The translations under genes were made by a program, and so were the position numbers. Below the pieces are notes generated by a model, which worked only from the letters and a program-made list of their open reading frames with translations, did no database searches and was not told where the DNA came from. Shown here piece after piece: positions 1-17,949 of a DNA stretch of 64,000 nt; the first letter of the stretch is position 1, and each line of letters starts with the position of its first letter. Source of the stretch: Amycolatopsis albispora (GTDB taxonomy: Bacteria; Actinomycetota; Actinomycetes; Mycobacteriales; Pseudonocardiaceae); the NCBI RefSeq assembly GCF_003312875.1, contig NZ_CP015163.1:1798001-1862000 (forward strand), given 5' to 3'.

Positions 1-1415
1 ATTCCCTGCGGGCGACGCGGCTGGTGGCGAGGGCCAACGAGCTGCTCGGCAGCCGGATCCTGTTGCGGGACCTGCTTTCCGGGCCGAACCCGCGGGCGCT
101 GGCGACCCACGTCGGTGACGACGCTGGCACCGCACCCGGACCGCGGCCGCGGCCGGAGCTGGTGCCGTTGTCGTTCGCCCAGCAGCGGCTGTGGTTCATG
201 GACCAGGTCGAGCCGGGCACCTCGCGGTACAACGTGCCGATCACCTTGTCGCTCAAGGGAAAACTGGACCGGCTGGCGCTGGCCGACGCGCTGGACGAGG
301 TGGTCGCCCGGCACGAGGCGCTGCGCACCACGTTCCCGTCACCGAAGGGCAGGCCGCGTCAGGTCGTGGCGGACGAACTCCACGTCGACCTGAACTGGAC
401 CGACCTCTCCGACGACCCCGGCGAGGCGGCGCGACTGACCATTGAGGACGGTAACGCGCCGTTCGACCTCGCCACCGGGCCGCTGGTGCGGGCCAGGCTG
501 ATCCGGCTCGGGGAGGACGAGCACCGCCTGCTGCTGGTCTTCCACCACATCGTGATCGACGCGTGGTCGCTCGACATCGTGCTCCGCGAACTCGGCGAGC
601 TGTATTCGGGCAAGTCGCTCGCCCCGGTGACCCTGCAGTGCGCGGATCATGCGATCTGGCAACGGGAATGGCTGCGCGGTGAGGTGCTCGACGACCTGCT
701 GCGGTACTGGCGCGCGGCCCTGGGCACCGAAGTACCCACGCTGGACCTGCCCTACGACAAGCCGGGTTCGCGTGAGGGTTTCCGCGGTGCCACCGCTGTG
801 CGGGGGATCGACGCCGCGCTGGTGCGTGAGCTGCGGGCGCTGAGCAGGCGGCACGGCGTCACGCTGTACATGACGCTGCTCGCCGCGTTCCAGCGGCAGC
901 TCGGGCGGTGGGCCGGAGCGGACGAGGTGGTGGTCGGCACGCCGATCGCCGGGCGGACCGCGCCCGAACTGCGGTCCGTGGTCGGCTGCCTGATCAACAT
1001 GGTGCCGGTGCGCGCGAACCTGGCTACCGCCCCGGATTTTGCCAGCCTGCTGTCAAATGTCCGCGCGGACACGCTGGGCGCGTTCGCCCACCAGGACCTG
1101 CCGTTCGACCGGCTGGTGGAGGAACTCGGCCCGCGGCGGCGGCCACGGGACTTCATGCCGCTGTTCCGCGTGATGTTCAGCTTTCTCGACGCGCGTGAGC
1201 TGCCCGAGTTCCCCGGTGTCGAGGTCGGTTACCGGCTGGGCTGGCCGCAGAACGCCGCCCAGTTCGCGTTGAGCCTGGTCGTCGAGGTGGCCGGGCCCGA
1301 GCTGAAGACCACCCTGCAGTACGACAGCGACCGGTTCACCCCGGAAACCGCGATGGCCGTGCTCGACGGCTTCGAGCGCACCCTGCGTGGCGTGACTGAG
1401 GAGGATTCCCGTTGA
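1..1415 (+). CDS. NRPS fragment: PCP (3' part) - condensation domain, truncated by window edge
   Basis: This is the 3' end of a nonribosomal peptide synthetase. The first complete codon (position 3, TCC) is the phosphopantetheine serine of a peptidyl carrier protein: it is preceded by AT, the end of an Asp or Asn codon, and followed by Leu-Arg-Ala-Thr as in the DSL core. A complete condensation domain follows from about position 160. It carries the HHxxxDxW motif (HHIVIDAWS), with the catalytic second His at 546-548. The protein ends right after the C domain, so the matching adenylation domain is in the next gene. The stop overlaps the next start (TTG at 1412). GTG at 24 is an internal codon, not the start. 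The C domain should join the upstream chain to the residue loaded by the next protein, predicted to be Thr. Confidence 0.93.
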   Translation, partial: SLRATRLVARANELLGSRILLRDLLSGPNPRALATHVGDDAGTAPGPRPRPELVPLSFAQQRLWFMDQVEPGTSRYNVPITLSLKGKLDRLALADALDEVVARHEALRTTFPSPKGRPRQVVADELHVDLNWTDLSDDPGEAARLTIEDGNAPFDLATGPLVRARLIRLGEDEHRLLLVFHHIVIDAWSLDIVLRELGELYSGKSLAPVTLQCADHAIWQREWLRGEVLDDLLRYWRAALGTEVPTLDLPYDKPGSREGFRGATAVRGIDAALVRELRALSRRHGVTLYMTLLAAFQRQLGRWAGADEVVVGTPIAGRTAPELRSVVGCLINMVPVRANLATAPDFASLLSNVRADTLGAFAHQDLPFDRLVEELGPRRRPRDFMPLFRVMFSFLDARELPEFPGVEVGYRLGWPQNAAQFALSLVVEVAGPELKTTLQYDSDRFTPETAMAVLDGFERTLRGVTEEDSR

Positions 1416-3160
1416 GTGGTGAGGAATGCGTTCACGAGTGGTTCGCGCGGCAGGCCGCGCGGCGCGGTGACGCGGTCGCGGTGAGCTGCGGCCGGGAGAC
1501 CCTGACCTACCGCGAACTCGACCAGCGCGCCAACCGGCTGGCCAGGCACCTGCGCTCGCTCGGCGTGGGCCCCGAGGTGCCGGCCGGGGTGTGTGCCGAA
1601 CGCTCGCCGGACCTGGTGGTGGCGCTGCTCGCGGTGCTCAAGGCCGGTGGCGCGTACCTGCCGCTCGACCCGGCCCATCCCGACGACCGGCTGTCCGGGC
1701 TGCTCGCCGACGCGGGGGCGCCGGTGCTGCTGACCGACCACGCCGACCGCTCGCTTGGCGCGCGGACCGTGGTGGACCTGGCCCACACCGACCTGGACGC
1801 CTATCCCGCGACCGCGCCGGAAACCGGGGTCGGGCCGGGGAACCTGGCGTATCTGATGTACACCAGCGGTTCGACCGGCACGCCCAAGGGGGTGCTGGTC
1901 GAGCACCGCAACGTGACGCGGTTGTTCAGCAGTACCAGCGAGTTGTTCCGGTTCGGCGCGGACGACGTGTGGACGTTGTTCCACTCGGTGGCCTTCGACT
2001 TCTCGGTGTGGGAGATGTGGGGCGCGCTGCTGCACGGCGGACGGCTGGTCGTGGTGCCGCGTGACGTGGCCCGCGCGCCGGAGCGGTTCGCCGCCCTGCT
2101 GTGCGAGGAAGGCGTCACCGTGCTGAACCAGACGCCGGGCGCGTTCCGCCAGCTGGTCGCCGAGGACGAGCGCGGCCTGCCGGGCGCGCTCGCGCTGCGG
2201 ATGGTGGTCTTCGGCGGGGACGTGCTGCCGTTCGAGCTACTGGAACCGTGGTTCGCGCGCCACCGGGACATCGCGCTGGTCAACATGTACGGCATCACCG
2301 AGACCACGGTGCACGTCACGCACCGGCCGCTCACCCCGGCGGACGCGGGCGCGCCGGGCAGCATGATCGGCCGCGCGCTGCCGGATCTGTCCGTGCGGTT
2401 GCTCGGCTCTGGCGAACGAGAGGGCGAGATCCTCGTGGGTGGCGCCGGGGTGACCCGGGGTTATCTCGGCAGGCCCGCGCTGACCGCGGAACGCTTCCTG
2501 CCCGATCCCCACGCGACGGTCCCGGGCGCGCGGCGGTACCGCACCGGTGATCTGGCCCGCGACCACGACGGTGACCTGCGGTTCCTCGGCCGGGCGGACA
2601 GCCAGGTCAAGATCCGCGGGCACCGGGTGGAGATCGGCGAGGTGGAGGCGGCGGTGAACGCGCACCCGTCGGTCAGCGCGGCCGCGGTGCTGGCACATCC
2701 CGACGAGACCGGCTCGCCGCGGCTGACCGCGTACTGGGTCAACGGCACCTCGGACAGCCTGAGCGCGGCCGAACTGCGCGGCCATCTCGCCGCGAAGCTG
2801 CCCGAGTACCTGCTGCCCAGCGGCTACGTGCGCCTGGACCGCCTGCCGCTGACCGCCAACGGCAAGGTCGACCGGCGGGCGCTGCCCGCGCCGGACACCG
2901 AGCGGCCCGAACTCGCCGAGCCCTATGCCGCGCCGACCACCGACCTGGAGGAGACGCTGACCCGGATCTGGGCGAGCGTGCTCGGGCTCGACCTGGTCGG
3001 CATCGACGACGACTTCTTCGAGCTGGGCGGGCATTCGCTGCTGGCCGCGCAGGTGGTCGCCGAGCTGAAGGACCGGCTGGGCATTCCGGCGTCGCTGCGG
3101 TTGCTGTTCGACCAGCCGACCGTCCGCACCTTCGCCGCCCGGATCAAGGAGGCATCGTGA
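1412..3160 (+). CDS. NRPS subunit A-PCP, threonine-type adenylation domain
   Basis: A 582-residue two-domain subunit that activates an amino acid as the adenylate and loads it on its own carrier protein. Adenylation motifs run in order: YTSGSTGTPKG near residue 150, FDFSVWEMW, MYGITETT, YRTGDL, and the A10 lysine in TANGKVDRR. Aligned by eye to GrsA, the ten pocket residues read DFWNVGMVHK. This differs from the classic threonine code DFWNIGMVHK only by Ile to Val, so Thr is a firm prediction. The PCP has LGGHSL with Ser542. The TTG start at 1412 has a strong upstream GAGGAG and overlaps the preceding stop, so translation is coupled to the C-domain protein. A subunit break between C and A is unusual; breaks normally follow the PCP. 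It depends on the MbtH-like protein of the cluster, by analogy. Confidence 0.94.
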   Translation: MSGEECVHEWFARQAARRGDAVAVSCGRETLTYRELDQRANRLARHLRSLGVGPEVPAGVCAERSPDLVVALLAVLKAGGAYLPLDPAHPDDRLSGLLADAGAPVLLTDHADRSLGARTVVDLAHTDLDAYPATAPETGVGPGNLAYLMYTSGSTGTPKGVLVEHRNVTRLFSSTSELFRFGADDVWTLFHSVAFDFSVWEMWGALLHGGRLVVVPRDVARAPERFAALLCEEGVTVLNQTPGAFRQLVAEDERGLPGALALRMVVFGGDVLPFELLEPWFARHRDIALVNMYGITETTVHVTHRPLTPADAGAPGSMIGRALPDLSVRLLGSGEREGEILVGGAGVTRGYLGRPALTAERFLPDPHATVPGARRYRTGDLARDHDGDLRFLGRADSQVKIRGHRVEIGEVEAAVNAHPSVSAAAVLAHPDETGSPRLTAYWVNGTSDSLSAAELRGHLAAKLPEYLLPSGYVRLDRLPLTANGKVDRRALPAPDTERPELAEPYAAPTTDLEETLTRIWASVLGLDLVGIDDDFFELGGHSLLAAQVVAELKDRLGIPASLRLLFDQPTVRTFAARIKEAS

Positions 3161-6087
3161 GCGAGCACGTGGCGGTCGTCGGGCTGAGCGCACGGTTCCC
3201 CGGGGCGGCGGACACCGAGGAGTACTGGCGGCTGCTGACCGAGGGCCGGGAGGGCATCAGGCACTTCACCACGGACGAACTGGCCGCCGCCGGGGTGTCC
3301 GCCGAGCGGCTGGCCGACCCGGCGTTCGTGCCCGCCGCGGGCACGCTGGAGCGGCCGGCCGAGTTCGACGCGGAGTTCTTCGGCTTCACCAGGGCCGAGG
3401 CCGAGCTGACCGATCCGCAGCAGCGGCTGTTCCTGGAGGGCGCCTGGCAAGCGCTGGAGGACGCCGGTTACGTGCCGTCGGCCTTTCCCGGCCGGATCGG
3501 CGTGTTCGCCGGTGCCTCGACCACGCGGTACCGGGCCGAGCGGATCGGGGACGGCGACCGGTTCCACCCGATGCAGGTGGCCATCGGCAACGACCTGGAC
3601 ATGCTGGCGCTGCGGGTGTCCTACCACCTGGACCTGCGTGGCCCGAGCATGACCGTGCAGACCACCTGCTCGTCGTCGGCGGTGGCCGTGCACCTGGCCG
3701 CGCAGAGCCTGCTGCTGCACGAATCCGATCTGGCGCTGGCCGGTGGGGCCGCGGTCCGGTTCCTCGAACCACAGGGGTACGCCCACGCCGAGGGGGACAT
3801 CGCCTCACCGGACGGGCACTGCCGCCCGTTCGACGCCGAGGCGGCGGGCACGGTCGCCTCGGACGGGGTCGGCGCGGTGGTGCTCAAGCGGCTCGACGAG
3901 GCGGTCGCCGACGGGGACCACATCTACGCCGTGCTGCTGGGTTCGGCGGTGAACAACGACGGGCGCGCCAAGGTCGGCATCACCGCGCCGTCACCGGACG
4001 GGCAGGCCGCGGTGATCGCCGACGCGCTCGCCGTCGCCGGTGCCGACCCCGCCACGATCCAGTACGTCGAGGCCCACGGCACCGCGACCAGGCTGGGCGA
4101 TCCGATCGAGGTCCGCGCGCTGACCACGGCGTTCGGGCCGGACACGAAGCGGTGCCTGCTGGGCTCGGTGAAGTCGAACATCGGGCACGCCGACGTGGCG
4201 GCGGGCGTGGCCGGGGTGATCAAGCTGGCGCTGGCGCTGGACCGGCGGTACCTGCCGCCGACGCGGAACTTCACCACGCCGAACCCCGAAATGGGGCTGG
4301 ACGCCACGCCGTTCCGGGTGGTGGACACCGGAATGCCGTGGCCGGAGGCGGAGCACCCGCCGCGGGCGGGGCTCAGCTCGTTCGGCATCGGCGGCACCAA
4401 CGCGCACCTGGTGTTCGAGGCGGCACCACAGGTGGAGCGGGCGGCGCGGCCGCGCCGGGACTGGCAGGTGCTGCCGTTGTCCGCGCGCACCCCGGCCGCG
4501 CTCGACGCCGCCACCGACCGGCTTGCGCGTCACCTCGAACAGCATCCCGACGCCGACCTCGCCGACGTGGCGCACACCCTCCAGGTCGGCCGGACCGCGT
4601 TCGCGCACCGGCGGACCATCGTCTGCCGCGACCGGGCCGGAGCGCTGACCGAGCAGGCGGCCACCACCTTCACCGAGCGCACGCCCAGGGTGGTGTTCCT
4701 GTTCCCCGGCCAGTCGAGCCAGTACCCGGGCATGGGCGCGCGGCTCTACCGCGCAGAGCCGGTGTTCCGGTCCACTCTGGACGAATGCGCGGACCTGCTC
4801 GGCTGGGACGTGCGGCAGGCGGCGTTCACCGGCACGGCCGAATCGCTGCGGCGAACCGAGCACACGCAGGCGACGGTGTTCTGCGTGGACTACGCGCTGG
4901 CGCGGCTGCTCATGTCGTGGGGTATCGAGCCGGACGCGATGATCGGGCACAGCCTCGGTGAGTACGTGGCCGCATGCCTGTCCGGCGTGTTCTCGCTGCC
5001 GGACGCGCTGGCCGTGGTGTCGGCGAGGAGCCGCCTGATGGCGGAGCTGCCCGCCGGGCGGATGCTGGCCGTGGCGGCCGGGGTGGACGCGCTCGCCGGC
5101 GACCTGAACGTGGCGGCGGTGAACGGCCCGGAGGCGACCGTGCTGTCCGGCACGGCCGAGGAAATCGAGCTGGCGCGGGAAAAGCTGGCTGCCGAGGGCC
5201 TGCTGGTCCGTGAGCTGCGGACCTCGCACGCGTTCCACTCGGCGATGATGGAGCCGGCGCTGCCCGGCATCCGGGAGGCCGTCGCCGCCGTCACGCGCGG
5301 GGAGCCGCGGATCCCGTTCCTGTCCAATGTGACCGGGGACTGGATCACCGCGGACCAGGCCGCCGATCCGGACTACTGGGCCAGGCACACGCGCCTGCCG
5401 GTCCGGTTCGCCGACGGGATCACCACCGCACTGGCCGACAGCGACCCGGTTTTCGCCGAGGTCGGGCCGGGCAACGCGCTGAGCGGGCTGGTGCAGGGCC
5501 GCGCCGAGGTGGTGACCCTGTTGCGGCGGGCCAGGAACGGCACCGTCGAGGAGACCCGCTCGGTCACCGAAGGCGTCGCCGCCCTGTGGCGGCACGGGGT
5601 TCCGGTCGACTGGACGGCCTTCGGCGGCGGCAGGCGGGTTTCCCTGCCCACCTACCCGTTCCAGCGCGAGCACCACCTGCTGCCGAAGCCGGGCGAGGCA
5701 CCGCGGCGGGAGGCCGAGCCGGAGCCGGTCGCGCCACCGGCGTGGGAACCCGGCCCGGCGTGGCCGGACGACGAGCTGATGCGTGAGGTGGCCGAGGTCT
5801 GGCACGAGGTGATCGGCGTGTCCGGCTTCGGCCCGGACGACGACTTCTTCGAGCTGGGCGGCAATTCGCTGAGCGCCATCCAGATCGTGTCCCGGCTGCG
5901 GCAGCGCTACGGCCAGCTGCCGATGAGCGTGATCTTCGAGGCGCCGACGGTGGCCGAGGTGTCGGTGGCGATCCGCGCGCACCAGGCCGCCGGGGTCGAC
6001 CCGGACACGCTCGAAGCCCTGCTGGGAGAAGTCGAAGGCGGCGTTGAAGTCGAAGGCACAGCCACGACCGGAGGTTCGCATGACTGA
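3157..6087 (+). CDS. Type I PKS module KS-AT-ACP, malonyl-specific
   Basis: A 976-residue single polyketide module. The ketosynthase (about 1-425) has active-site Cys171 in TTCSSS, His307 in EAHGT and His344 in KSNIGH. The acyltransferase (about 515-800) has Ser599 in GHSLGE and the HAFH signature at 691-694, which marks malonyl-CoA. The carrier domain (Ser904 in LGGNSL) looks more like a PCP than a classical ACP, typical for NRPS/PKS hybrids. There is no KR, DH or ER, so it should add one C2 unit to the Thr-type aminoacyl chain and leave a beta-keto group unless a trans enzyme acts. The acidic C-terminal helix with DTLEALL is the kind of tail used for docking. GTG start overlaps the previous stop by 4 nt. 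Confidence 0.94.
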   Translation: MSEHVAVVGLSARFPGAADTEEYWRLLTEGREGIRHFTTDELAAAGVSAERLADPAFVPAAGTLERPAEFDAEFFGFTRAEAELTDPQQRLFLEGAWQALEDAGYVPSAFPGRIGVFAGASTTRYRAERIGDGDRFHPMQVAIGNDLDMLALRVSYHLDLRGPSMTVQTTCSSSAVAVHLAAQSLLLHESDLALAGGAAVRFLEPQGYAHAEGDIASPDGHCRPFDAEAAGTVASDGVGAVVLKRLDEAVADGDHIYAVLLGSAVNNDGRAKVGITAPSPDGQAAVIADALAVAGADPATIQYVEAHGTATRLGDPIEVRALTTAFGPDTKRCLLGSVKSNIGHADVAAGVAGVIKLALALDRRYLPPTRNFTTPNPEMGLDATPFRVVDTGMPWPEAEHPPRAGLSSFGIGGTNAHLVFEAAPQVERAARPRRDWQVLPLSARTPAALDAATDRLARHLEQHPDADLADVAHTLQVGRTAFAHRRTIVCRDRAGALTEQAATTFTERTPRVVFLFPGQSSQYPGMGARLYRAEPVFRSTLDECADLLGWDVRQAAFTGTAESLRRTEHTQATVFCVDYALARLLMSWGIEPDAMIGHSLGEYVAACLSGVFSLPDALAVVSARSRLMAELPAGRMLAVAAGVDALAGDLNVAAVNGPEATVLSGTAEEIELAREKLAAEGLLVRELRTSHAFHSAMMEPALPGIREAVAAVTRGEPRIPFLSNVTGDWITADQAADPDYWARHTRLPVRFADGITTALADSDPVFAEVGPGNALSGLVQGRAEVVTLLRRARNGTVEETRSVTEGVAALWRHGVPVDWTAFGGGRRVSLPTYPFQREHHLLPKPGEAPRREAEPEPVAPPAWEPGPAWPDDELMREVAEVWHEVIGVSGFGPDDDFFELGGNSLSAIQIVSRLRQRYGQLPMSVIFEAPTVAEVSVAIRAHQAAGVDPDTLEALLGEVEGGVEVEGTATTGGSHD

Positions 6088-7186
6088 GACCACCCACCGG
6101 GCCAAGGCACGCGCACCGCGGTCCCGGCCGCGGCGGCCGACCAGCACGATGGACTTCACCCTGTTCTTCTTCTCCGGCGACGGCACGGGCAGCGGGCCCG
6201 GCAAGTACCAGCTGCTGCTGGACTGCGCCGAGTTCGCCGACGCGCACGAGTTCACCGCGATCTGGGTGCCGGAACGCCACTTCGTCGATTTCGGCGGCCT
6301 GTACCCGAATCCGTCGGTGCTGGCGGCGGCGCTGGCCACGCGGACCGAGCGGATCCAGCTCCGCGCCGGGAGCGTGGTGGTGCCGCTGCACCACCCGGTC
6401 CGGATCGCCGAGGAGTGGGCGGTGGTGGACAACCTCTCGGGTGGCCGGGTGGGGATCGCCTGCGCTTCGGGCTGGCATCCCAACGACTTCGTACTGGCAC
6501 CCGAGCGCTACAAGGGCCGCAAGGACGACATGTTCGCCGCCATCGAGACGATCCGGCGGCTGTGGGCCGGGGAGACGGTGGAGCTGGACGGCCCGGAGGG
6601 CAGCGTGGTCGGGGTGCGGACGCTGCCCCGGCCGCTGCAGGAGCGGCTGCCGATGTGGGTGTCCTCGCAGGGCAGCATCGACACCTTCCGGCGGGCGGGC
6701 GAGGTTGGCGCGCACGTGCTGACCGGGCTGGTCGCGCAGCGGCTGAGCGATCTCGGCGAGAAGATCACCGCGTACCGGACCGCGCTGGCCGAGGCCGGGC
6801 ACGATCCGGCGCTGGGCAAGGTTTCGGCGATGGCGCACACCTTTCTCGGCCCGTCCGACGACGAGGTCAAGGAGCTGGTGCGGGCACCGCTGATCGGCTA
6901 CCTGCGCAACTTCCTGTCCCAGCAGGACGGCACCGGCGGTGAGTTCAGCCCGCTCAACGAGGAGGAGCGGGAGGCCATGCTGGCCGCCAGCTTCGAGCGC
7001 TACTTCGCCACGATCGCCTTGCTGGGCACGCCGGACAAGTGCGAGACGCTGATCGAGGACCTGCTCGACATCGGGGTGGACGAGGTGGCGTGCCTGGTCG
7101 ACTTCGGCCTCGAACCGGACACCGTGCTGTCCGGGCTGCGCTACCTCGACGAGCTGCGGGCGCGTTACCGCGGGGAGCGGGCATGA
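6080..7186 (+). CDS. Free-standing luciferase-like monooxygenase of the NRPS/PKS-associated type
   Basis: A 368-residue FMN-dependent monooxygenase with a TIM-barrel fold. It starts MDFTLFFFSGDG after a basic leader and contains WVPERHF, NPSVLAAALA, LRAGSVVVPLHHP, EEWAVVDNLSGGRVG and ASGWHPNDF, which mark the luciferase-like family usually found as a domain inside NRPS or PKS modules. Here it is a separate protein between the PKS and the Gly-like module. Start ATG 6080 has GGAGG five bases upstream and overlaps the PKS stop; an in-frame ATG at 6044 lies inside the PKS gene without a better site. Related domains in myxothiazol and melithiazol assembly lines hydroxylate carrier-bound glycine so that the chain leaves as an amide. 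A similar act on the next module's residue, or alpha-oxidation of the beta-keto chain, is possible. Confidence 0.88.
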   Translation: MTETTHRAKARAPRSRPRRPTSTMDFTLFFFSGDGTGSGPGKYQLLLDCAEFADAHEFTAIWVPERHFVDFGGLYPNPSVLAAALATRTERIQLRAGSVVVPLHHPVRIAEEWAVVDNLSGGRVGIACASGWHPNDFVLAPERYKGRKDDMFAAIETIRRLWAGETVELDGPEGSVVGVRTLPRPLQERLPMWVSSQGSIDTFRRAGEVGAHVLTGLVAQRLSDLGEKITAYRTALAEAGHDPALGKVSAMAHTFLGPSDDEVKELVRAPLIGYLRNFLSQQDGTGGEFSPLNEEEREAMLAASFERYFATIALLGTPDKCETLIEDLLDIGVDEVACLVDFGLEPDTVLSGLRYLDELRARYRGERA

Positions 7187-10100
7187 CCGAGCTCGCCGCC
7201 CGCCTGGCCAAGCTGACCCCGGAGCAGCGCGCCCGGCTCGACGCCAAGCTGCGTGCCAAGGCCGGCCGGTCCGCGTTGCTGAACCGGGTGCCCAAGCGCC
7301 AGCGGGCGAACCGGGTGCCGCTGACGGTGGACCAGGAGCGGATCTGGCTGATCCACCAGTTCGACCCGGCGGATCCGGTCTACAACGTGCACTTCGGCAC
7401 GCACCTGACCGGCGAGCTGTCGGTGGAGGCGCTGGAGCGGGCGGTGAACGCCTTCGCCGCGCGGCACGAAGCCCTGCGCACCACCTTCGAAACCGACGGG
7501 CTGCGCCCGGTGCAGGTGATCCACGACGAACTGCCGATCAAGATCCGGCACGCGGTGGCGCGGGACCTGGCCGAGGCGCACCGGCTGGCCGGGGAAGAGG
7601 CGAGCGTGCCGATCGACATCGTGCGCGGGCCGCCGATGCGGGTGACCTTGTTCCGGCTGGGCGATGCCGAGCACGTGATGGTGGTGGTGGTCGACCACCT
7701 GGTGTGGGACCGCGGCGTCACCGGCATGTTCGAGGGCGACCTGGTGCGGTTGTACAACGCGTTCGCCACCGGGATGGAGCCGGACTACCCGCCGCTGGAG
7801 ATCCAGTACGCCGACTACGCCGAATGGCAGCCGTACTGGCTGCGCGAGGAACTGCACCGGCGGCAGATCCCGTACTGGACCGACCGGCTCGCCGGGGCGT
7901 CGATGGTGCTGGAGCTGCCGCCCGACCGCCCGCGCCCGCCGGTGCAGACCTTCAACGGCGCGCGCTACCGGTTCGAGATGAGCCGGGAGCTGACGCTGGG
8001 GCTGCGCGCGCTGGCCCGGCGCGAGGGCGTGACGGTGAACGTGACGCTGCTGGCCGCGTGGTACGCGCTGCTGCACCGGTACACCGGCGAGCAGGACATC
8101 ATCGTCGGCACCACCTCGTCCACGCGCAGCAGGCCCGAGCTGGAGCCGATCGCGGGGTACTTCCTGACCATGCTGCCGCTGCGCACCACGGTGACCCCGG
8201 AGCAGACCTTCCGCGAGCTGATCGCGGCCACGCGGGCGACCATGGTCGGCGCGTTCGCGCACCACGACACCCCGTTCGGCGCGCTGCTCGACGAGCTGGA
8301 CATCGAACGCGACCCCAGCCGGAACCCCGTGTACCAGGTGTCGTTCATCTTCGTCGACTTCAACGAGCCCGCGGTGCCCATGCACGGGCTCGAGGTCGAG
8401 CAGCTGACCTTCGACAACCACACGGCCAAGGACGACTGCATGCTGTGCGTCTGGGACGAGGAGGCGGTCGCCGACCACTTCTTCGGCCTGTTCGAGTACA
8501 ACACCGACCTGTTCACCGAGGACACCATCGCCCGCATGTGGCGGCACCTGGAACGGCTGCTGGAACAGGTGGCGGTGGACCCGGAGCCGCGGTTGCGGGA
8601 GCTGTCGCTGGCCGGTCCGGACGAGGTCGAGCTGGTGCTGCGCGACTGGAACCGGACCACAGTGGACGGTCTGACCGCGGCCGGGGTCGAAGAACTCGTG
8701 CGGCGGCGGGCACTGTCCACACCGGACGCGGTCGCGGTGGTCTGCGGCCAGGAATCGCTGACCTACGCGGAACTGGTGGATCGCGCGCTCCGGCTGGCCG
8801 GGTACCTGCGGCAGCGTGGCGCGCGGCCGGAGACGGTGGTCGCGGTCTGCCTGGACCGGTCACCGGAGCTGGTGGTCGCGTTGCTCGGCGTGCTGCTGAG
8901 CGGGGCCGCGTACCTGCCGCTCGACCCGGCGCACCCGGCGGAACGGCGCGCGGCGATGACCGCCGACGCCGGGGCGCTGCTGGTGGTCACCGAGGACACC
9001 GTGCGCGCGGCGGCCACCGCCGAGCTGCCCGCCGATCTTCCTCCGGTACCACCGGACTTCCTCGCCTACGTCATCTACACCTCGGGCTCGACGGGCAAGC
9101 CCAAGGGCGTCGAGGTGACCAGGGGCGGCCTGGTCAACCTGATCCGGTCGCTGGCCGGGGAGATCTCGCTGCGGCCGGACGACGTGCTGGTCGCGGTCAC
9201 CTCGGTGTCGTTCGACATCGCCGGGTTCGAGCTGTACGCGCCGCTGGTCACCGGCGGGCGCGTGGTGCTGGCCCGCACGCCCGAGATCCGCGACGGCCGG
9301 CGGCTGGCCGCGTTGCTCGACGACGCGGGCGCCACGGTCATGCAGGCCACGCCGAGCGCGTGGCAGCTGCTGCTGGAAGCGGGCTGGCGCAACGACCGCG
9401 GCCTGCGGGTGATCACCGGGGGCGAACCGCTGCCGCCCTCGCTCGCGGCCGAACTGGTCACCAGCCGGACGTGGAACGTCTACGGGCCGACGGAGACCAC
9501 CATCTGGTCCACGGCCAAGGCGATGGACACCGGCACCGAGCGGATCTCCATCGGCGGGCCGCTGGCCAACACCGAGGTCTACGTGCTCGACGAGGCGCTG
9601 CGGCCGGTGCCGATCGGCATGCCGGGTGAGCTGTACCTCGGCGGGGCCGGGGTGGCGCGGGGTTACCGGGGCCGTCCGGAGCTGACCGCCGGGCGGTTCG
9701 TGCCGGATCCGTTCTCCGGCAGGCCGGGCGCGCGGTTGTACCGCACCGGCGACCAGGTCCGGTTCGCCGCGGACGGGAACCTGTACTTCCTCGGGCGCGA
9801 CGACGGCCAGGTCAAGCTGCGCGGGTACCGGATCGAGCTGGGCGAGGTGGAAACGCGGCTGGCCGGGCACCCGCGGGTGCGCCAGGCGGTGGCGGTGATC
9901 CGGGAGGACCGGCCGGGGGACCGGCGCCTGGTCGCCTACGTCCGTTTTGTGCAAGGTGAGGCGACGCCGGAGGAACTGCGTGCGCACCTGAGCACCTTCC
10001 TGCCCGAGTACATGATCCCGTCGGCGTTCGTGCCGGTGACCGAGTTCGCGCTGACCACCAGCGGCAAGATCGACCGCCGCGCGCTGCCCGCCCCACCGGC

Positions 10101-11160
10101 CCGGCGCACCGGCGACTACACCCCGCCGCGTGATCCGGTCGAGCTGGAGGTCGCGCACGTGTGGGAGGAGGTGCTCGGGGTGCGCCCGGTCGGGCTGCGT
10201 GAGCGGTTCTTCGACCTCGGCGGCCATTCGCTGCTGGTGCTGCGGCTGATGGCCGAGATCGAGCGCCGCTTCGGCCAGGAGCTGCCGATGGCGGCGATCT
10301 TCCAGGGCGCCACGGTCGAGCGGTTCGCGCAGATGCTGCGTGAGGGCTACCGGCCGCGCGAGCGCGAGCACCTGGTGGAGATCAAGGCCGGAGGTGAGGG
10401 CACACCGTTGTTCTTCGCGCACCCGGCGGGCAGTGAGGTCGTCTGCTACATGCCGTTCGCGAAACTGCTGGCGGGGCGCCCGCTGTACGCGATCGCCGCG
10501 CCCGCGACGCCGGACGCGGGCTTCGCCGGCTTCGAGGAACGCGCCGCGGCCTACGCGAAGCTGATGCGCGAGGTCCAGCCGCGCGGGCCGTACGTGCTGG
10601 CGGGCTGGTGCTACGGCGGGATCAACGCCTTCGCCATCGCGCGGTCGCTGGAAGCCCAGGGAGAGCAGGTTTCCTTGCTGCTGCTGGACGCCTACGGCCC
10701 CGAGGAGATGGTGGACGGCGAGGATCCCGGCCGGGCGGCGATCGTCGAAGGGCTGGCGCTGAACCTGCAGTGGGACCGCACCGATGACCTGAAGTCGCTG
10801 GCCGAGCTCGGCGCGATGAGCGACGACGAGCAGCTCGACTACCTGCTCATGCTGGCGCGCCGCGGTGACTACCTGCCGCAGGACGCCGGGCGCGAGCAGA
10901 TGAACACCTTCCTCGGGCTGTGGACGGCGAACCTCCGGCTGTCCTGGCGGTACCGGCCGACCCCGATGCGCGGACCGATCACCCTGATCCAGGCCCGCGA
11001 AGAGGATCCGGAGCTGTTCACCAGCTGGCGCCCGCTGGCCGGTGGCGGGTTCGACGTCCGGCTGGTCGGCGGCAACCACTACACGATGATGCGTGAGCCG
11101 CGCATCGCCGAGGTCGCCGCGGCCATCGACGCCTGCCTGGCCGGAGCCGCGGATGCGTGA
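7183..11160 (+). CDS. NRPS module C-A-PCP-TE, Gly-like A domain, thioesterase with catalytic Cys
   Basis: A 1,325-residue terminating module. A helical N-terminal segment (LAKLTPEQRARLDAKL) resembles a docking helix. The C domain has a variant motif, DHLVWDR, with the catalytic His172 kept but the first His replaced by Asp and the final Gly by Arg. The A domain (about 505-985) has pocket residues DIFQIGVIWK, nearest the glycine code DILQLGLIWK with three changes, so Gly or another small residue is likely. PCP Ser1016 lies in LGGHSL. The thioesterase (about 1075-1320) has HPAG, Asp1169 and His1299, but its nucleophile motif reads GWCYGG with Cys1143 (codon at 10609) in place of Ser. ATG 7183 overlaps the monooxygenase stop (ATGA). 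It should accept the polyketide-extended chain, add the last residue, and release or cyclise it. Confidence 0.95.
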   Translation: MTELAARLAKLTPEQRARLDAKLRAKAGRSALLNRVPKRQRANRVPLTVDQERIWLIHQFDPADPVYNVHFGTHLTGELSVEALERAVNAFAARHEALRTTFETDGLRPVQVIHDELPIKIRHAVARDLAEAHRLAGEEASVPIDIVRGPPMRVTLFRLGDAEHVMVVVVDHLVWDRGVTGMFEGDLVRLYNAFATGMEPDYPPLEIQYADYAEWQPYWLREELHRRQIPYWTDRLAGASMVLELPPDRPRPPVQTFNGARYRFEMSRELTLGLRALARREGVTVNVTLLAAWYALLHRYTGEQDIIVGTTSSTRSRPELEPIAGYFLTMLPLRTTVTPEQTFRELIAATRATMVGAFAHHDTPFGALLDELDIERDPSRNPVYQVSFIFVDFNEPAVPMHGLEVEQLTFDNHTAKDDCMLCVWDEEAVADHFFGLFEYNTDLFTEDTIARMWRHLERLLEQVAVDPEPRLRELSLAGPDEVELVLRDWNRTTVDGLTAAGVEELVRRRALSTPDAVAVVCGQESLTYAELVDRALRLAGYLRQRGARPETVVAVCLDRSPELVVALLGVLLSGAAYLPLDPAHPAERRAAMTADAGALLVVTEDTVRAAATAELPADLPPVPPDFLAYVIYTSGSTGKPKGVEVTRGGLVNLIRSLAGEISLRPDDVLVAVTSVSFDIAGFELYAPLVTGGRVVLARTPEIRDGRRLAALLDDAGATVMQATPSAWQLLLEAGWRNDRGLRVITGGEPLPPSLAAELVTSRTWNVYGPTETTIWSTAKAMDTGTERISIGGPLANTEVYVLDEALRPVPIGMPGELYLGGAGVARGYRGRPELTAGRFVPDPFSGRPGARLYRTGDQVRFAADGNLYFLGRDDGQVKLRGYRIELGEVETRLAGHPRVRQAVAVIREDRPGDRRLVAYVRFVQGEATPEELRAHLSTFLPEYMIPSAFVPVTEFALTTSGKIDRRALPAPPARRTGDYTPPRDPVELEVAHVWEEVLGVRPVGLRERFFDLGGHSLLVLRLMAEIERRFGQELPMAAIFQGATVERFAQMLREGYRPREREHLVEIKAGGEGTPLFFAHPAGSEVVCYMPFAKLLAGRPLYAIAAPATPDAGFAGFEERAAAYAKLMREVQPRGPYVLAGWCYGGINAFAIARSLEAQGEQVSLLLLDAYGPEEMVDGEDPGRAAIVEGLALNLQWDRTDDLKSLAELGAMSDDEQLDYLLMLARRGDYLPQDAGREQMNTFLGLWTANLRLSWRYRPTPMRGPITLIQAREEDPELFTSWRPLAGGGFDVRLVGGNHYTMMREPRIAEVAAAIDACLAGAADA

Positions 11161-12376
11161 GCTGCTGCGCGATCCGGTCTACCTCCGCTACTGGCTCGCC
11201 GTGGTGGTGTCGTTCCTCGGCGACGCGATGACCCGGATCACGCTGATCTACCTGACCGCGCAGCTGACCGGCAGCCCGGCCATGATCGCGGTGGTGGTGT
11301 TCGCGCAGTTGCTGCCGCAGGGCGCGCTCGGGGCGTTCGCGGGCCCGCTGATCGACCGGCTGCCGAAGCGGGCCGTGCTGGTCACCGCCGATCTCACGCG
11401 GGCGCTCGTGGTCGGGTCGATGATCTTCTTCACCGAGTCGGTCTGGGCGCTGCTGGTGCTGATCCTGCTGTCCGGGGTGGGCACCGCGTTCTTCGAGACC
11501 GCGCGGATCGCGGCGGTGCCGACGATCGTGGCCGGCAAGAGCCTGCCGACCGCGATCGCGTTGTTCCAGAGCACCTACCAGACCCTGCAGCTGGCCGGGC
11601 CCGCGCTCGGCGGGCTGCTGCTCACCTTCGCCGGGACCGGGCTGGTGCTGGCCATCGACGCGGCCACCTTCGTGGTGTCCGCCCTGCTGCTGGGCAGCCT
11701 GGGCGTGCTGCGGCACGTGCCGTCGGCGACCGGTGAGCGTGAGCCGTACTGGCGTTCGCTGGCGGCCGGGGTCCGCGGGGTGCTGGCGATCCCGTCGCTG
11801 CGGTTCGTCTTTGTCGCGCTGATCCCGGCGACCGCGGTGTTCGGCCTGTTCACCACGAACTTCAACGCCGAGCTGCTGACCGTGTTCGACCTGCCCGCCG
11901 CGGCGTACGGGTTCGCGCAGGCGTGCCTGGCGGTGGGCTCGGTGCTCGGCGCGCTGCTCGGGCCCGCGCTGATCCGGCGGTACCGGGCACCCGCGACGCT
12001 GCTGGTGGTGGCGATCGCGCTGTTCGGGGTGTCGCTGGTGCTGCTCGCGCCCACGCAGTGGCTGTGGGGACACGTCGGCATCGCCGCGGTACTGCCGTGG
12101 TGCCTGATCGCCGGGCTGTTCACCAGCCTGTACCAGGTGCCCGCGGCCAACACGCTGCTCGGCGACCTGCCGGAGGACCTGCGCGGGCGGGGCGTCGGGC
12201 TGCTCAACACCGCGACCTACGGCCTGACCCTGGCCGGGGTGGCCATCGGCGGCGTGCTGGCCGCCGGGATCGGGGTGGCCGCGTCGGTGGTGGTCGCCGG
12301 GGCGGCCCTGGTGCTGGTCACCGGGCTGCTGCTGCCCTACGCCCGAGTCACCAGGCAAACCGAGGAGCCGGTATGA
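11153..12376 (+). CDS. MFS exporter of the biosynthetic cluster
   Basis: A 407-residue major facilitator with about twelve hydrophobic segments, beginning LRYWLAVVVSFLGDAMTRI and carrying the loop motif GPLIDRLPKR between helices 2 and 3. Its overall look is that of the EntS / drug-efflux group that exports nonribosomal products. It overlaps the TE module by 8 nt and the next NRPS gene by 4 nt (ATGA), so it is embedded in the operon and most likely exports the product and provides self-resistance. ATG 11153 has GGAG seven bases upstream; upstream in-frame ATG codons lie inside the NRPS gene. Confidence 0.9.
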   Translation: MRELLRDPVYLRYWLAVVVSFLGDAMTRITLIYLTAQLTGSPAMIAVVVFAQLLPQGALGAFAGPLIDRLPKRAVLVTADLTRALVVGSMIFFTESVWALLVLILLSGVGTAFFETARIAAVPTIVAGKSLPTAIALFQSTYQTLQLAGPALGGLLLTFAGTGLVLAIDAATFVVSALLLGSLGVLRHVPSATGEREPYWRSLAAGVRGVLAIPSLRFVFVALIPATAVFGLFTTNFNAELLTVFDLPAAAYGFAQACLAVGSVLGALLGPALIRRYRAPATLLVVAIALFGVSLVLLAPTQWLWGHVGIAAVLPWCLIAGLFTSLYQVPAANTLLGDLPEDLRGRGVGLLNTATYGLTLAGVAIGGVLAAGIGVAASVVVAGAALVLVTGLLLPYARVTRQTEEPV

Positions 12377-15300
12377 CGATTCCGCTTTCGGCCGCGCAAC
12401 GGCGCCTCTGGGTGCTCGCCGAGCTGCGGCCGGACGATCCCTTCTACAGCATCCCGTTCGCCGTGGACCTCAGCGGGGAACTCGACGTGCCCGCGCTGGA
12501 ACGGGCGGTCGCCGAGGTCGTGCGGCGGCATCCGCCGTTGCGCAGCAGCATCGAGCGTGACGCCACCGGGGAACTCGTGCACCGGGTCCACCCGGCGGGT
12601 CCGGTGTCCATCCCGGTGGTGGAGCCGGGCATCGAGGACCGGTTCGCCGCCGAGCCGTTCGACCTGGCCGACGGCCCGTTGTTCCGCACCGCGCTGGTGC
12701 GGTACGGCCCGCGTTCGCACCGGCTGCTGGTGAACGTGCACCACATCGTGTTCGACGGGCCGTCGCTGCACCTGTTCATGGCCGAGCTGACCGCGTCGTA
12801 CGAGGGCAAGCCGCTGCCCGAGCTGCCGCTGAGCTACGCGGACTGCCTGCGGTCGCAGCCGTCACCGTCGGTGCGGTACTGGACCGAGCGCCTGGCCGGG
12901 GCGCCGGAGACGGTGGACCTGCCGCTCGACCGGCCCCGCCCGGCGGCCAGCGAGCACCGGCTGGCGCGGCATTCCCGGTTGCTGCCGCAGGAGATCCTCG
13001 ATCCGCTCGCGGTGCTCGCCCGCCGCAACCGCGCGACCATGTTCATGGTCACCAAGGCCGCCTGCGACGTGCTGCTGCGTCAGCACGGCGCGACCGACGT
13101 GCTCATCGGCGTGCCGCTGGCCGGGCGGGACACCGCCGAGGCGGCCGGGCTGATCGGCTACCTGACGCGGCCGGTGGTGCTGCGGACCACGCTGTCCGAC
13201 GAGCACGCCTTCACCGATGTGCTGCGCCTGGTGCGGGAGGACGTGCTGGACGCGCACACCCACGGCGAGCTGCCCTTCGACGCGGTGCTGCCCGCGCTCG
13301 GCGTGGCCAGGGATCCCAGCTACGACCCGTTCCACCAGGTCATCTTCGGCTACGTCGGCCGGTTGCCGGTGACCGGCGCCGGTGGGGTCGAATTCCGCGC
13401 CTCCTACCTGACGGTGCCGACCACCGCGGTGGAGCTGGAGGTGACCGTGCACGAGACCGACGGCGGCCTGCGCGCGGACTTCGACTACCGGGCCGACCTG
13501 TTCGAGCCGGTGACCATCGAGCGGATGGCGGCCCGGCTGGAGACGATCCTGCGCCGGGCCGGGGCCGATCCGCTGACGCGCGTGGCGGAGCTGATCCTGC
13601 CGGACGGGGCCGAGTACGAGCAGGCGGTGGTGACCTGGAACGACACCCGCGCGGACTACCCGTCGGGGCGCGGCATCCACGAACTGGTCGAGGACCAGGC
13701 CGAGCGCACGCCGGACGCGGTCGCGGTGGAGGACGGCGGCCGGAAGTGGACCTACCGCGAACTCGAGGAGCGCGCGAACCAGGTGGCGCACCAGCTCCAC
13801 GCGCTCGGCATCGCACCGGAGACGCCGGTCGGGGTGAGCCTGCCTCGCACGGCGGAGTTGCTCGCCGTGCTGCTGGGCATCTTCAAGGCGGGCGGGGTGT
13901 ACCTGCCGCTGGAACGGTCGCTGCCGGTGAACCGGTTGCGGGCGATGGTCGAGGACGCGGCGCCGGCCGTGATCCTCGCGGACGATCCGTCCATTGAGTC
14001 CACTGTGGACTTCGGGGTGCCGGTGGTCCACCCGGCCGGGGGCGGGCCGGCCGAGCGCGTGCGGTATCCGGTCGAGGCGGGCAACGCGGCCTACATCCTG
14101 TACACCTCCGGGTCCACCGGTGGCCCGAAGGGCGTGGTGCTGGAGCACCGCAACCTGAACAACCTGCTGACCTGGGCGCACCGCGAACTCGGCACGGCGG
14201 CGTTCGCGTCGGTGCCGTTCATCAGCTCGCTGTCCTTCGACGTGTCGATGTGGGAGATCTTCACGACGCTGACCTGCGGTGGGACCGTGCTGATCGCCGA
14301 GGACGCGTTCGACCTGCGGGCGGGCACGCCGGTGAGCCTGCTGACCGCGGTGCCGTCGATCCACGCGGAGCTGCTGAAGCTGGGCGGGGTGCCGTCGTCC
14401 GCGCGCACGATCGTGTCGAACGGCGAGGTGCTGCCACCGTCCGTGCTCGCCGACCTGGCCGGGCTCGGTACCGCCGACACCATCTACAACATGTACGCCC
14501 CGACCGAGACCACCACGTTCTCGCTGTTCAACGTGGTGCGCCCGGGTGAGCCGATTCCGCTGGGGCGGCCGATGGCCAACACGATGGCCTACGTGCTGGA
14601 CGCGCGGCTGCGGCCGGTTCCGCCGGGTGTGGTCGGGCAGCTGCACCTCGGTGGTGCCGGGATCACCCGCGGTTACCTGAACAAGCCGTCGCTGACCGCG
14701 GACCGGTTCCTGCCCGATCCGTTCACCACCGAGCCGGGGCAGCGCATGTACGCCACCGGCGACCTGGTGCGGCACGGGCCGGACGGCCGGGTGCTGTTCG
14801 TCGGCCGCGTGGACCACCAGGTGAAGCTGCGGGGTGCCCGGATCGAACTCGGTGAGGTCGAAGCGGCGCTGCGCACGCATCCGGCGGTCGGCGAGGCGTG
14901 TGCGGTGGTGCTGCGCGGGAGCACCGATTCGCTGGCCGCGGCGGTGGTGGCACGCGGCGAGGTCGATCCGGCCGCGCTGCGCGACCACCTGCGGGAGCTG
15001 TTGCCCGGGTACATGGTGCCCGACCGGATCACGCTCGCCGGCGCGTTGCCGTTGCTGCCCAGCGGCAAGCTCGACCGCAAGCGGATCACGCAGGACCTCG
15101 CGGCCGAACCCGTTGCGGTGGACGAAGATCCACCCGCCGGTGAGGTCGAGCGGCGGGTGGCCGAGGCGTGGACGGCGGTGCTCGGGCAGCCGGTGGGCGC
15201 GAACCGCAACTTCTTCGAGGCGGGCGGCAACTCGCTGGCCCTGATCACGTTGCGGGAGCGGCTGCGGGCGGACCTGGGCAAGCCGGTGCGCACGGTGGAG

Positions 15301-15441
15301 CTGTTCCGCCACCCCACGATCCGCGCGATGGCGGCGTTCCTGGCCAACGGTGACGGTGAGACCGAGCGACCGGACCTCACCGGCCGGGTACGGGCTCGCC
15401 GGGCGGCCATCGCCCGGCGGCGGACCGCGGAGCGGCGCTGA
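12373..15441 (+). CDS. NRPS module C-A-PCP, substrate not predicted
   Basis: A 1,022-residue module that starts directly with its condensation domain (PLSAAQRRLWVLAEL), with no docking extension. The C motif is HHIVFDG with His124. The A domain (about 435-905) has YTSGSTGGPKG, FDVSMWEIF, MYAPTETT, YATGDL and the A10 lysine in PSGKLDRK. Eye-aligned pocket residues are DVWTVNMTFK, which match no common code; the Asp first residue says an alpha-amino acid. PCP Ser954 is in AGGNSL. The C-terminus ends in a basic tail rich in Arg. There is no TE, and it sits after the gene that has one, so gene order and assembly order differ. It could act first, as a module that acylates or feeds the others, or in the middle. 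MbtH dependence is likely. Confidence 0.93.
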   Translation: MTIPLSAAQRRLWVLAELRPDDPFYSIPFAVDLSGELDVPALERAVAEVVRRHPPLRSSIERDATGELVHRVHPAGPVSIPVVEPGIEDRFAAEPFDLADGPLFRTALVRYGPRSHRLLVNVHHIVFDGPSLHLFMAELTASYEGKPLPELPLSYADCLRSQPSPSVRYWTERLAGAPETVDLPLDRPRPAASEHRLARHSRLLPQEILDPLAVLARRNRATMFMVTKAACDVLLRQHGATDVLIGVPLAGRDTAEAAGLIGYLTRPVVLRTTLSDEHAFTDVLRLVREDVLDAHTHGELPFDAVLPALGVARDPSYDPFHQVIFGYVGRLPVTGAGGVEFRASYLTVPTTAVELEVTVHETDGGLRADFDYRADLFEPVTIERMAARLETILRRAGADPLTRVAELILPDGAEYEQAVVTWNDTRADYPSGRGIHELVEDQAERTPDAVAVEDGGRKWTYRELEERANQVAHQLHALGIAPETPVGVSLPRTAELLAVLLGIFKAGGVYLPLERSLPVNRLRAMVEDAAPAVILADDPSIESTVDFGVPVVHPAGGGPAERVRYPVEAGNAAYILYTSGSTGGPKGVVLEHRNLNNLLTWAHRELGTAAFASVPFISSLSFDVSMWEIFTTLTCGGTVLIAEDAFDLRAGTPVSLLTAVPSIHAELLKLGGVPSSARTIVSNGEVLPPSVLADLAGLGTADTIYNMYAPTETTTFSLFNVVRPGEPIPLGRPMANTMAYVLDARLRPVPPGVVGQLHLGGAGITRGYLNKPSLTADRFLPDPFTTEPGQRMYATGDLVRHGPDGRVLFVGRVDHQVKLRGARIELGEVEAALRTHPAVGEACAVVLRGSTDSLAAAVVARGEVDPAALRDHLRELLPGYMVPDRITLAGALPLLPSGKLDRKRITQDLAAEPVAVDEDPPAGEVERRVAEAWTAVLGQPVGANRNFFEAGGNSLALITLRERLRADLGKPVRTVELFRHPTIRAMAAFLANGDGETERPDLTGRVRARRAAIARRRTAERR

Positions 15442-16187
15442 TGGACATCGGCTCCTGCCGGGCCATCGTCACCGGCGCCGCGAGCGGACTGGGCCGGGCG
15501 TGCTGCCTCGGCCTGGCCGAAGCGGGCGCCGAGGTGGTGGCCGTGGACACCGACCGGAAAGGACTGGACGCGCTGGCCGGTGACCGGATCTTCCCGCGGG
15601 AAGCCGACGTCACCCGGGAACGGGACGTGGCCGGTGCGGTGGAGGCGGCCTTCGCGCGGTTCGGCCGGGTGGACGTGCTGGTGAACTTCGCCGGGATCTA
15701 CCGCGACGGCCTGCTGGTCAAGGACATCGGGGACGGCGACTTCGTCTCCATGCCGCTCGCGCAGTGGCGGGCGGTGCTCGACACCGATCTGACCGGGACC
15801 TTCCTGCCGGTGCGCGAAACCGCGGTGCGCATGGTGCGCGCGGGCGTCCGGCCGGGTGTGCTCATCACTGTCTCGTCGGTGTCGCGCGCGGGGAACGCGG
15901 GGCAGGGCAACTACGCCGCGGCCAAGGCGGGCGTGGTGGCGTTCACCCGATCGGTCGCACTGGAACTGGCGCCGCACGGCATCCGCGCGGCGGCCATCGC
16001 ACCCGGCTTCATCGACACGCCGATCCTGTCCGCGATGGACCCGGCCCGGCTCGCCGCGCGGGTGGACGAGATCCCGGTGCGGCGGCTGGGCACCCCGGCG
16101 GAGATCTTCGCCGGGGTCCGCTTCGCCATCGAATGCGAGTACTTCACCGGCCGCTGCCTGGACATCGACGGCGGCCTGGCACTGTGA
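15441..16187 (+). CDS. Short-chain dehydrogenase/reductase (FabG-like) of the cluster
   Basis: A 248-residue classical SDR. It has the cofactor motif TGAASGLGR near the N-terminus, NFAG, and the catalytic Ser (VSSVS) with YAAAK. The family uses NAD(P)H to reduce ketones or oxidise alcohols. The PKS module has no ketoreductase, so trans reduction of the beta-keto intermediate is a reasonable guess; oxidation of a side-chain hydroxyl is the alternative. The start ATG shares one base with the NRPS stop (TGATG), so it is translationally coupled within the operon. The C-terminal DIDGGLAL is typical of SDR ends. Confidence 0.9.
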   Translation: MDIGSCRAIVTGAASGLGRACCLGLAEAGAEVVAVDTDRKGLDALAGDRIFPREADVTRERDVAGAVEAAFARFGRVDVLVNFAGIYRDGLLVKDIGDGDFVSMPLAQWRAVLDTDLTGTFLPVRETAVRMVRAGVRPGVLITVSSVSRAGNAGQGNYAAAKAGVVAFTRSVALELAPHGIRAAAIAPGFIDTPILSAMDPARLAARVDEIPVRRLGTPAEIFAGVRFAIECEYFTGRCLDIDGGLAL

Positions 16188-17748: not shown

Positions 17749-17949
17749 ATGAGCGAGGACGAGACCACCTACGTCGTGGTGCTCAACGACGAGGAGCAGT
17801 ACTCGATCTGGCCGGCCGACCGGGAACTGCCCGCGGGCTGGCGCACCGACGGCACCCGGGGCACGAAGTCCGAATGCCTCGACCACATCGGTGAGGTCTG
17901 GACGGACATGCGGCCGCTGAGCGTGCGGAAGCAGCTGGAAAGCCTCTGA
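17749..17949 (+). CDS. MbtH-like protein
   Basis: A 66-residue MbtH-family protein, the small partner that binds A domains and keeps them soluble and active. The family signature is complete: NDEEQYSIWP, LPAGWR, GTKSECLDHI, VWTDMRPLS. It is the last gene of the biosynthetic operon, 17 nt after the PP-loop gene. GGAAAGGAG lies just upstream of ATG 17749, which settles the start. It should serve all three A domains of the cluster. Confidence 0.97.
   Translation: MSEDETTYVVVLNDEEQYSIWPADRELPAGWRTDGTRGTKSECLDHIGEVWTDMRPLSVRKQLESL

Follow-up and report, generated by a model that had tools for sequence, protein, structure and literature searches.

A fixed cysteine nucleophile in a position-I type I thioesterase at the end of a glycine-coded NRPS module in Amycolatopsis albispora

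A hybrid gene cluster of Amycolatopsis albispora encodes a type I thioesterase (TE) with a cysteine nucleophile at the end of a glycine-coded nonribosomal peptide synthetase (NRPS) module; a sequence-only reading of this DNA had rightly recognised the arrangement, which Pfam, the DNA itself and the signature of the adenylation domain A4 bear out. By alignment the catalytic Asp takes position I, and we put at roughly one in two the chance that this enzyme frees the hybrid chain through attack by an amine or a hydroxyl and not by water, with no four-membered ring. The window to which all coordinates refer is the whole stretch of DNA that was analysed, 64,000 nucleotides of contig NZ_CP015163.1 (Table 1).

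The TE domain scores 80.8 bits against PF00975, where the Pfam cut-off is 26.4, and the codon of its catalytic Cys is the TGC at 10609-10611 within GWCYGG; in having a Cys nucleophile the enzyme agrees with ObiF and SulM. The open frame that encodes it, P0001, extends over 7039-11160 on the + strand, and the ATG at 7183 (MTELAARL...), which overlaps the stop codon of the gene for a luciferase-like monooxygenase (LLM), is the likeliest start of the TE gene. Counted from this ATG the triad is Cys1143, Asp1169 and His1299, exactly the residues and numbers of the sequence-only reading; counted from the first GTG of P0001 the same residues are Cys 1191, Asp 1217 and His 1347.

Table 1. Features of the cluster and of the thioesterase in the window.
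Feature	Position	Strand	Basis or remark
3' part of NRPS gene, A1-PCP1-C2	1..1415	+	A1 and PCP1 by eye and signature, C2 by Pfam
NRPS gene, A2-PCP2	1412..3160	+	signature DFWNVGMVH, Pfam
Type I PKS module, KS-AT-ACP without KR	3157..6087	+	Pfam
LLM, TIGR04020 (MupA/Atu3671 family)	6080..7186	+	NCBIfam; putative start
NRPS gene, C4-A4-PCP4-TE	7183..11160	+	Pfam; domain order C, A, PCP, TE
Type I thioesterase domain PF00975, Cys/Asp/His triad	10375..11157	+	Pfam
GWCYGG nucleophile elbow	10603..10620	+	GGC TGG TGC TAC GGC GGG
Catalytic Asp, GAC	10687..10689	+	Cys+26; position I by alignment
Catalytic His, CAC	11077..11079	+	Cys+156, in GNHYT
MFS exporter	11153..12376	+	Pfam; overlaps TE stop codon
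NRPS gene, C5-A5-PCP5 without TE	12373..15441	+	signature DVWTVNMTF
FabG-like SDR	15441..16187	+	Pfam/NCBIfam
PP-loop ATPase-like protein, 515 aa	16184..17731	+	GGGKDS by eye; cluster membership uncertain
MbtH-like protein	17749..17949	+	PF03621

The A1-PCP1-C2 gene starts 1614 bases before the window (L018:10386-13415), and upstream of it lie a P450 gene and a regulator-like gene, the latter having no Pfam match and a likeness to ParB/StrR by eye; measured from the P450 gene to MbtH, the cluster spans about 22 kb. We take the A2 signature to be a Thr-like code, and the HAFH motif of the PKS acyltransferase to be of the malonyl type. The order A2, KS, AT, LLM, C4-A4-TE, MFS is kept in ten of ten related loci. 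The PKS of both relatives scanned (2/2) has a KR domain, whereas that of the window has none; the FabG-like SDR is a candidate stand-in for it. Four wider regions of relatives all share the A2 signature DVWNVAMVH (4/4), a Gly-like A4 (4/4) and a degenerate A5 (4/4); in the four examined (L022-L030) the conserved signature Asp of A5 is gone, while the window retains it. The TE-less C5-A5-PCP5 module leaves the order of the chain ambiguous, and the module order is a putative one. For the PP-loop-like protein there was no match in Pfam (E 1e-4) or NCBIfam (1e-3).

Several neighbouring features are recorded here in their own right. The condensation motif of the C4 domain (7309-8628) is DHLVWDR, compared with HHxxxDG, so that its first His and its Gly are replaced; P0039 reads DHLVWDR and P0040 DHMVWDR. 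A KamA-family radical SAM protein (17998-19389, - strand; TIGR03820 162.7 bits, below the cut-off of 525.4) adjoins the cluster, and might supply a beta-amino acid as a 2,3-aminomutase, or be unrelated. Some 31-51 kb upstream of the window there are two more very long frames on opposite strands, L006:3-8564 (2853 aa) and L007:6817-14115 (2432 aa), both of which coincide in part with DNA that matches the window's NRPS genes. In Streptomyces roseolus a gene for a DpgC-like oxygenase (L030:6733-8064; NF042432 521.6 bits, just below the cut-off of 530) is flanked by the degenerate A5 module and an A-domain gene, and further on in relatives there are an ATP-grasp gene (L009) and an HAD-family gene; together these genes suggest that the products of the relatives contain an oxidised acyl unit. 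NCBIfam names for whole NRPSs (SolG, EntF and others) scored far below their cut-offs and were set aside. Also rejected was the ichizinone cluster, which has LLM, NRPS, PKS and MFS genes: compared by description, its modules (a KS-ACP PKS, then Val, a beta-amino acid, Leu and Val; PMC12144821) do not fit.

The cysteine is a fixed character of the lineage. A search of the protein collection with the TE part returned 80 proteins at E <= 1e-10, the scored sequences being the 8000 candidates that shared most words with the query, a choice with a slight possible bias towards Cys-bearing sequences. Thirty-five of these proteins (P0006-P0040) are orthologues, with TE identities of 50-92% before the next match drops to 34%. 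The nucleophile is Cys in all 35, or 36/36 with the window, and a base or sequencing error as its source is therefore rejected. The catalytic His is likewise present in 35/35, and the Asp position is occupied by Asp in 32 orthologues and by Glu in 3. Among the 45 more distant TEs of the same search, 39 have Ser and 6 have Cys. A GWCYGG pattern helped to find the ten related loci, which carry no weight in the case for the Cys. The host genome has 19 PF00975 matches, 18 of them with a legible motif, and these divide into 17 Ser and one Cys, the window TE.

This lineage is rare. Of 249 genomes sampled from the taxonomic family, 3 have a match at E <= 1e-40, the host's own included; in a phylum sample of 396 genomes the host is the sole match at that level, and three weaker matches, at 33-35% identity, all have Ser. 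The GWCYGG DNA pattern matched 3 of 298 genomes of the order, a count that is uninformative because the reversed control pattern matches more genomes; the plasmid records gave 402 matches, all below 60% identity, and nothing of use. Two further residues mark the family: an Asn at Cys+5 and an Asn directly before the catalytic His, each present in 36/36 family TEs versus 0/50 others, and both may shape the active site. GNHYT is found also in one Ser TE (L050). The Cys is not tied to a Gly code in general, P0049 and P0054 combining it with a Val-like code. The open-licence literature, in its accessible text, yielded no description of the lineage or its product, most subscription-journal papers lying outside this scope; we are aware of no characterised activity or product in the family.

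What the cysteine is unlikely to do can be read from the substrate side. The A4 signature conforms to D-I-[LF]-Q-x-G-x-[IV]-W in 36/36 (DIFQIGVIW in the window), which we take to mean glycine; applied to other matches as a control, the same reading returned DLFNNALTY and DAFWLGGTF, which are Ala and Val codes. The last residue of the chain accordingly reads as glycine, a putative substrate from this code, and in all 36 it would offer no nucleophile on a beta-carbon of the kind that ObiF and SulM use; provided that the code holds, this excludes closure of a beta-lactone or beta-lactam at that residue.

The geometry of the triad points the same way. From Cys to Asp there are 26 residues in the window and 27 in AB3403; by published numbering there are 27 in BulbE and 108 in both ObiF1 and SulM. 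The accessible text of PMC11298585 and PMC6668435, whose strand numbering differs, gives the triads as Cys2818, Asp2926 and His2956 for SulM and Cys1146, Asp1254 and His1284 for ObiF1, with the Asp of both at position II, after strand 7 and at Cys+108. In the portion available, PMC11298585 presents AB3403 as the only other solved TE with a Cys, places its Asp at position I, and calls it uncharacterised; PMC11536411 likewise describes a Cys961/Asp988/His1097 triad for BulbE, with the Asp after strand 6. In the window the acidic residue of the triad, as aligned, stands at Cys+26, which gives the position-I layout and puts the enzyme among position-I Cys type I TEs, whose Asp follows some 26-27 residues after the Cys, although another acidic residue further along, the Glu of TE position 210 near QAREED (31 of the 36), might pair with His1299 instead. 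The sequence-only reading had named obafluorin and sulfazecin as the systems with Cys-TEs, which is true but incomplete, since AB3403 and BulbE have them as well; its further step, from likeness to ObiF and SulM to a strained ring, is not supported, given the Asp at Cys+26 and the Gly code, while the other kind of unusual ring closure that it allowed for may yet apply.

Comparison with solved structures also leads to AB3403, the best match for the TE alone (E 1.8e-27). For the terminal module AB3403 is best among solved terminal modules, aligned through the TE (E 4.5e-85; SrfA-C 2.8e-52, ObiF1 9.5e-43, EntF 1.1e-42); four LgrA chains score slightly better on A-PCP, in a match without the TE. 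The alignments to SrfA-C, ObiF1 and EntF stop 24-38 residues past the Cys (ObiF1: 24), and the early end of the ObiF1 alignment is no discriminator, because Ser position-I enzymes such as EntF end likewise.

In an 86-tip TE tree, made with the nucleophile column removed and without the ObiF1, SulM and BulbE TEs, and read unrooted, the 36 Cys TEs of the family form one split (UFBoot 100). A grouping with ordinary Ser hydrolases, which the sequence-only reading had held to count against its own view, appears weakly: eight Ser TEs come closest to the family, joining it at support 66. AB3403 lies within a split of 15 otherwise-Ser TEs (support 89), and no split of this tree joins the family with AB3403 alone, nor unites all 44 Cys TEs; common descent of the Cys with that of AB3403 is thus not seen there. 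As the Cys TEs form no joint split, the Cys probably arose more than once among TEs; and with AB3403 outside the family and Ser enzymes as nearest neighbours, function cannot be carried over.

In the reading that we give even odds, the chain on PCP4 would be a peptidyl-(2-hydroxy, perhaps 2,3-dihydroxy acyl)-glycine. This acyl-glycyl chain would be transferred from PCP4 to Cys1143, and the resulting acyl-Cys thioester would be resolved by an amine or a hydroxyl, either within the chain, giving a lactam or lactone of ordinary size, or on another molecule; a four-membered ring would not be closed. We propose that the Cys has been kept because a thioester favours aminolysis: compared with an oxoester it is more activated towards that reaction, whereas both hydrolyse alike, as is argued for BulbE in the accessible text of PMC11536411. 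There, BulbE C961S gave no detectable cyclic product and more hydrolysis than the wild type. Our case for a nucleophile other than water is an argument from likeness to that mutant and from the complete fixation of the Cys, and is not proof.

Hydrolysis is a common TE reaction, and the closest rival, doubtful but to be taken seriously, treats the Cys as a substitution that is neutral or lineage-fixed, with the TE freeing an N-acyl-glycine acid. The ordinary layout of the triad fits this, as do the Ser enzymes that are nearest in the tree (support 66); it is harder to square with a Cys fixed in 36/36 while the other legible TEs of the host are 17/17 Ser, and with BulbE, in which the Ser mutant is a better hydrolase than the Cys enzyme (PMC11536411, in the text available).

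A more specific proposal, which we consider rather unlikely, is that the lineage is an undescribed one whose chain, a 4-amino-2-hydroxy(or 2,3-dihydroxy)acyl-glycine, would be released in one of two ways: as a small lactone, for example a morpholine-2,5-dione, through attack by the hydroxyl that the LLM would install, or by transfer of the acyl group from the Cys onto whichever amino acid the TE-less C5-A5-PCP5 module carries. Neither release is so far a known TE reaction.

Both this proposal and the chain drawn for the preferred amine or hydroxyl release call on the LLM. The window LLM scores 461.1 bits against TIGR04020, well within the MupA/Atu3671 family by its curated cut-off of 244.45. 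We built a tree from the best 120 of 4846 matches together with the window LLM and ten from related loci, without MtaG and without stand-alone glycine hydroxylases such as skyllamycin's. Eighty-one LLMs, the window's among them, form one split (support 1.0), made up of the 11 LLMs of its own family and 70 others: 65 with an AT motif, the family's own fusion P0039, three proteins that list KS and AT domains (P0116, P0129, P0140) and one that lists KS only (P0136). Outside the split are all 43 LLMs that a motif rule places inside A domains, as in glycine oxidation of the myxothiazol type, and 7 others; finer placement of the window LLM beside single PKS types has weak support (0.72-0.77). In the available portions of PMC8739492 and PMC10204066, LLMs of PKS modules are alpha-hydroxylases, those of calyculin and mandelalide also performing a Baeyer-Villiger-type chain shortening, and the latter source gives LLM-type oxidation of glycine for myxothiazol and melithiazol. 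Since the window LLM groups with the PKS-type enzymes, alpha-hydroxylation of the PKS unit would be its likelier role, with glycine oxidation as the rival.

If glycine were the target, release could follow the MtaG pattern: the LLM would hydroxylate the Gly alpha-carbon, the carbinolamide would yield a C-terminal amide, and the Cys-TE would clear the glyoxyl thioester. Myxothiazol and melithiazol offer a published precedent (PMC10204066, in part), the Gly module has the LLM gene as its neighbour in the window and in 10/10 loci and is joined with it in one protein in P0039, and three LLM-in-A-domain proteins with a TE include one with Cys (P0143), one with Ser and one with Gln. We nevertheless regard it as improbable, given that the window LLM splits (1.0) with its family and 69 others, 68 of them with an AT motif or KS and AT and one with KS only, and that all 43 A-domain-inserted LLMs lie elsewhere; the window LLM is neither inserted in an A domain nor of that clade. 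The nucleophile motif of the terminal TE is GYCLGG in P0143, and GAQFGG, with Gln replacing the nucleophile, in P0184, which also has its LLM in the A domain.

Tetramates usually arise where a PKS unit directly precedes the last amino acid, and the window PKS lacks a KR domain by Pfam, both of which would suit a Dieckmann-type release in which a carbon nucleophile turns a keto-acyl-glycine into a tetramate or pyrrolidinedione; the KR in the relatives' PKS (2/2 scanned), the SDR gene adjoining the window cluster, and an LLM alpha-hydroxylation that would take away the acidic proton make this very improbable. Least credible is the strained four-membered ring closure of ObiF and SulM, which the Cys nucleophile in its GxCxG motif recalls, against an Asp that sits by alignment at position I, not II, and a terminal residue that is Gly-coded in 36/36 and would have no beta-carbon.

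These results suggest that a Cys in a TE is by itself an insufficient sign of a strained ring, and that one must also consider where the Asp lies and what the terminal residue is. In the 36 natural Cys-TEs on a Gly code, chemistry bars a four-membered ring at the last residue, and the benefit of the thiolate can therefore be tested in them without that confusion.

Among known systems, the C-A[LLM]-PCP-TE modules of the MtaG type resemble the window in bringing LLM, glycine and TE together in one release unit, but their LLM is inserted in the A domain, whereas that of the window is a separate gene of the PKS type. The TEs of ObiF1 (obafluorin) and SulM (sulfazecin) share the Cys nucleophile; they differ in their position-II Asp and are grouped with type II TEs (PMC11298585 and PMC6668435, in the text available), and the last residue of their chains bears the ring-closing beta-group where that of the window reads as Gly. 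The BulbE TE of the bulbiferamides, from Microbulbifer, has both the Cys and an Asp at Cys+27, as compared by published residue numbers, and its product is, by the available account, a 15-atom indolylamide macrolactam. AB3403 from Acinetobacter baumannii (the A1S_0115 orthologue; PDB 4ZXH/4ZXI) has the same C-A(Gly)-PCP-TE organisation, GWCxGG and a position-I Asp, and its A domain binds glycine (PMC5376624, in part). Its cluster differs, the accessible text of that paper listing an ACP and an acyl-CoA dehydrogenase among the genes and no LLM or PKS, as does its place in the tree, among Ser TEs at support 89.
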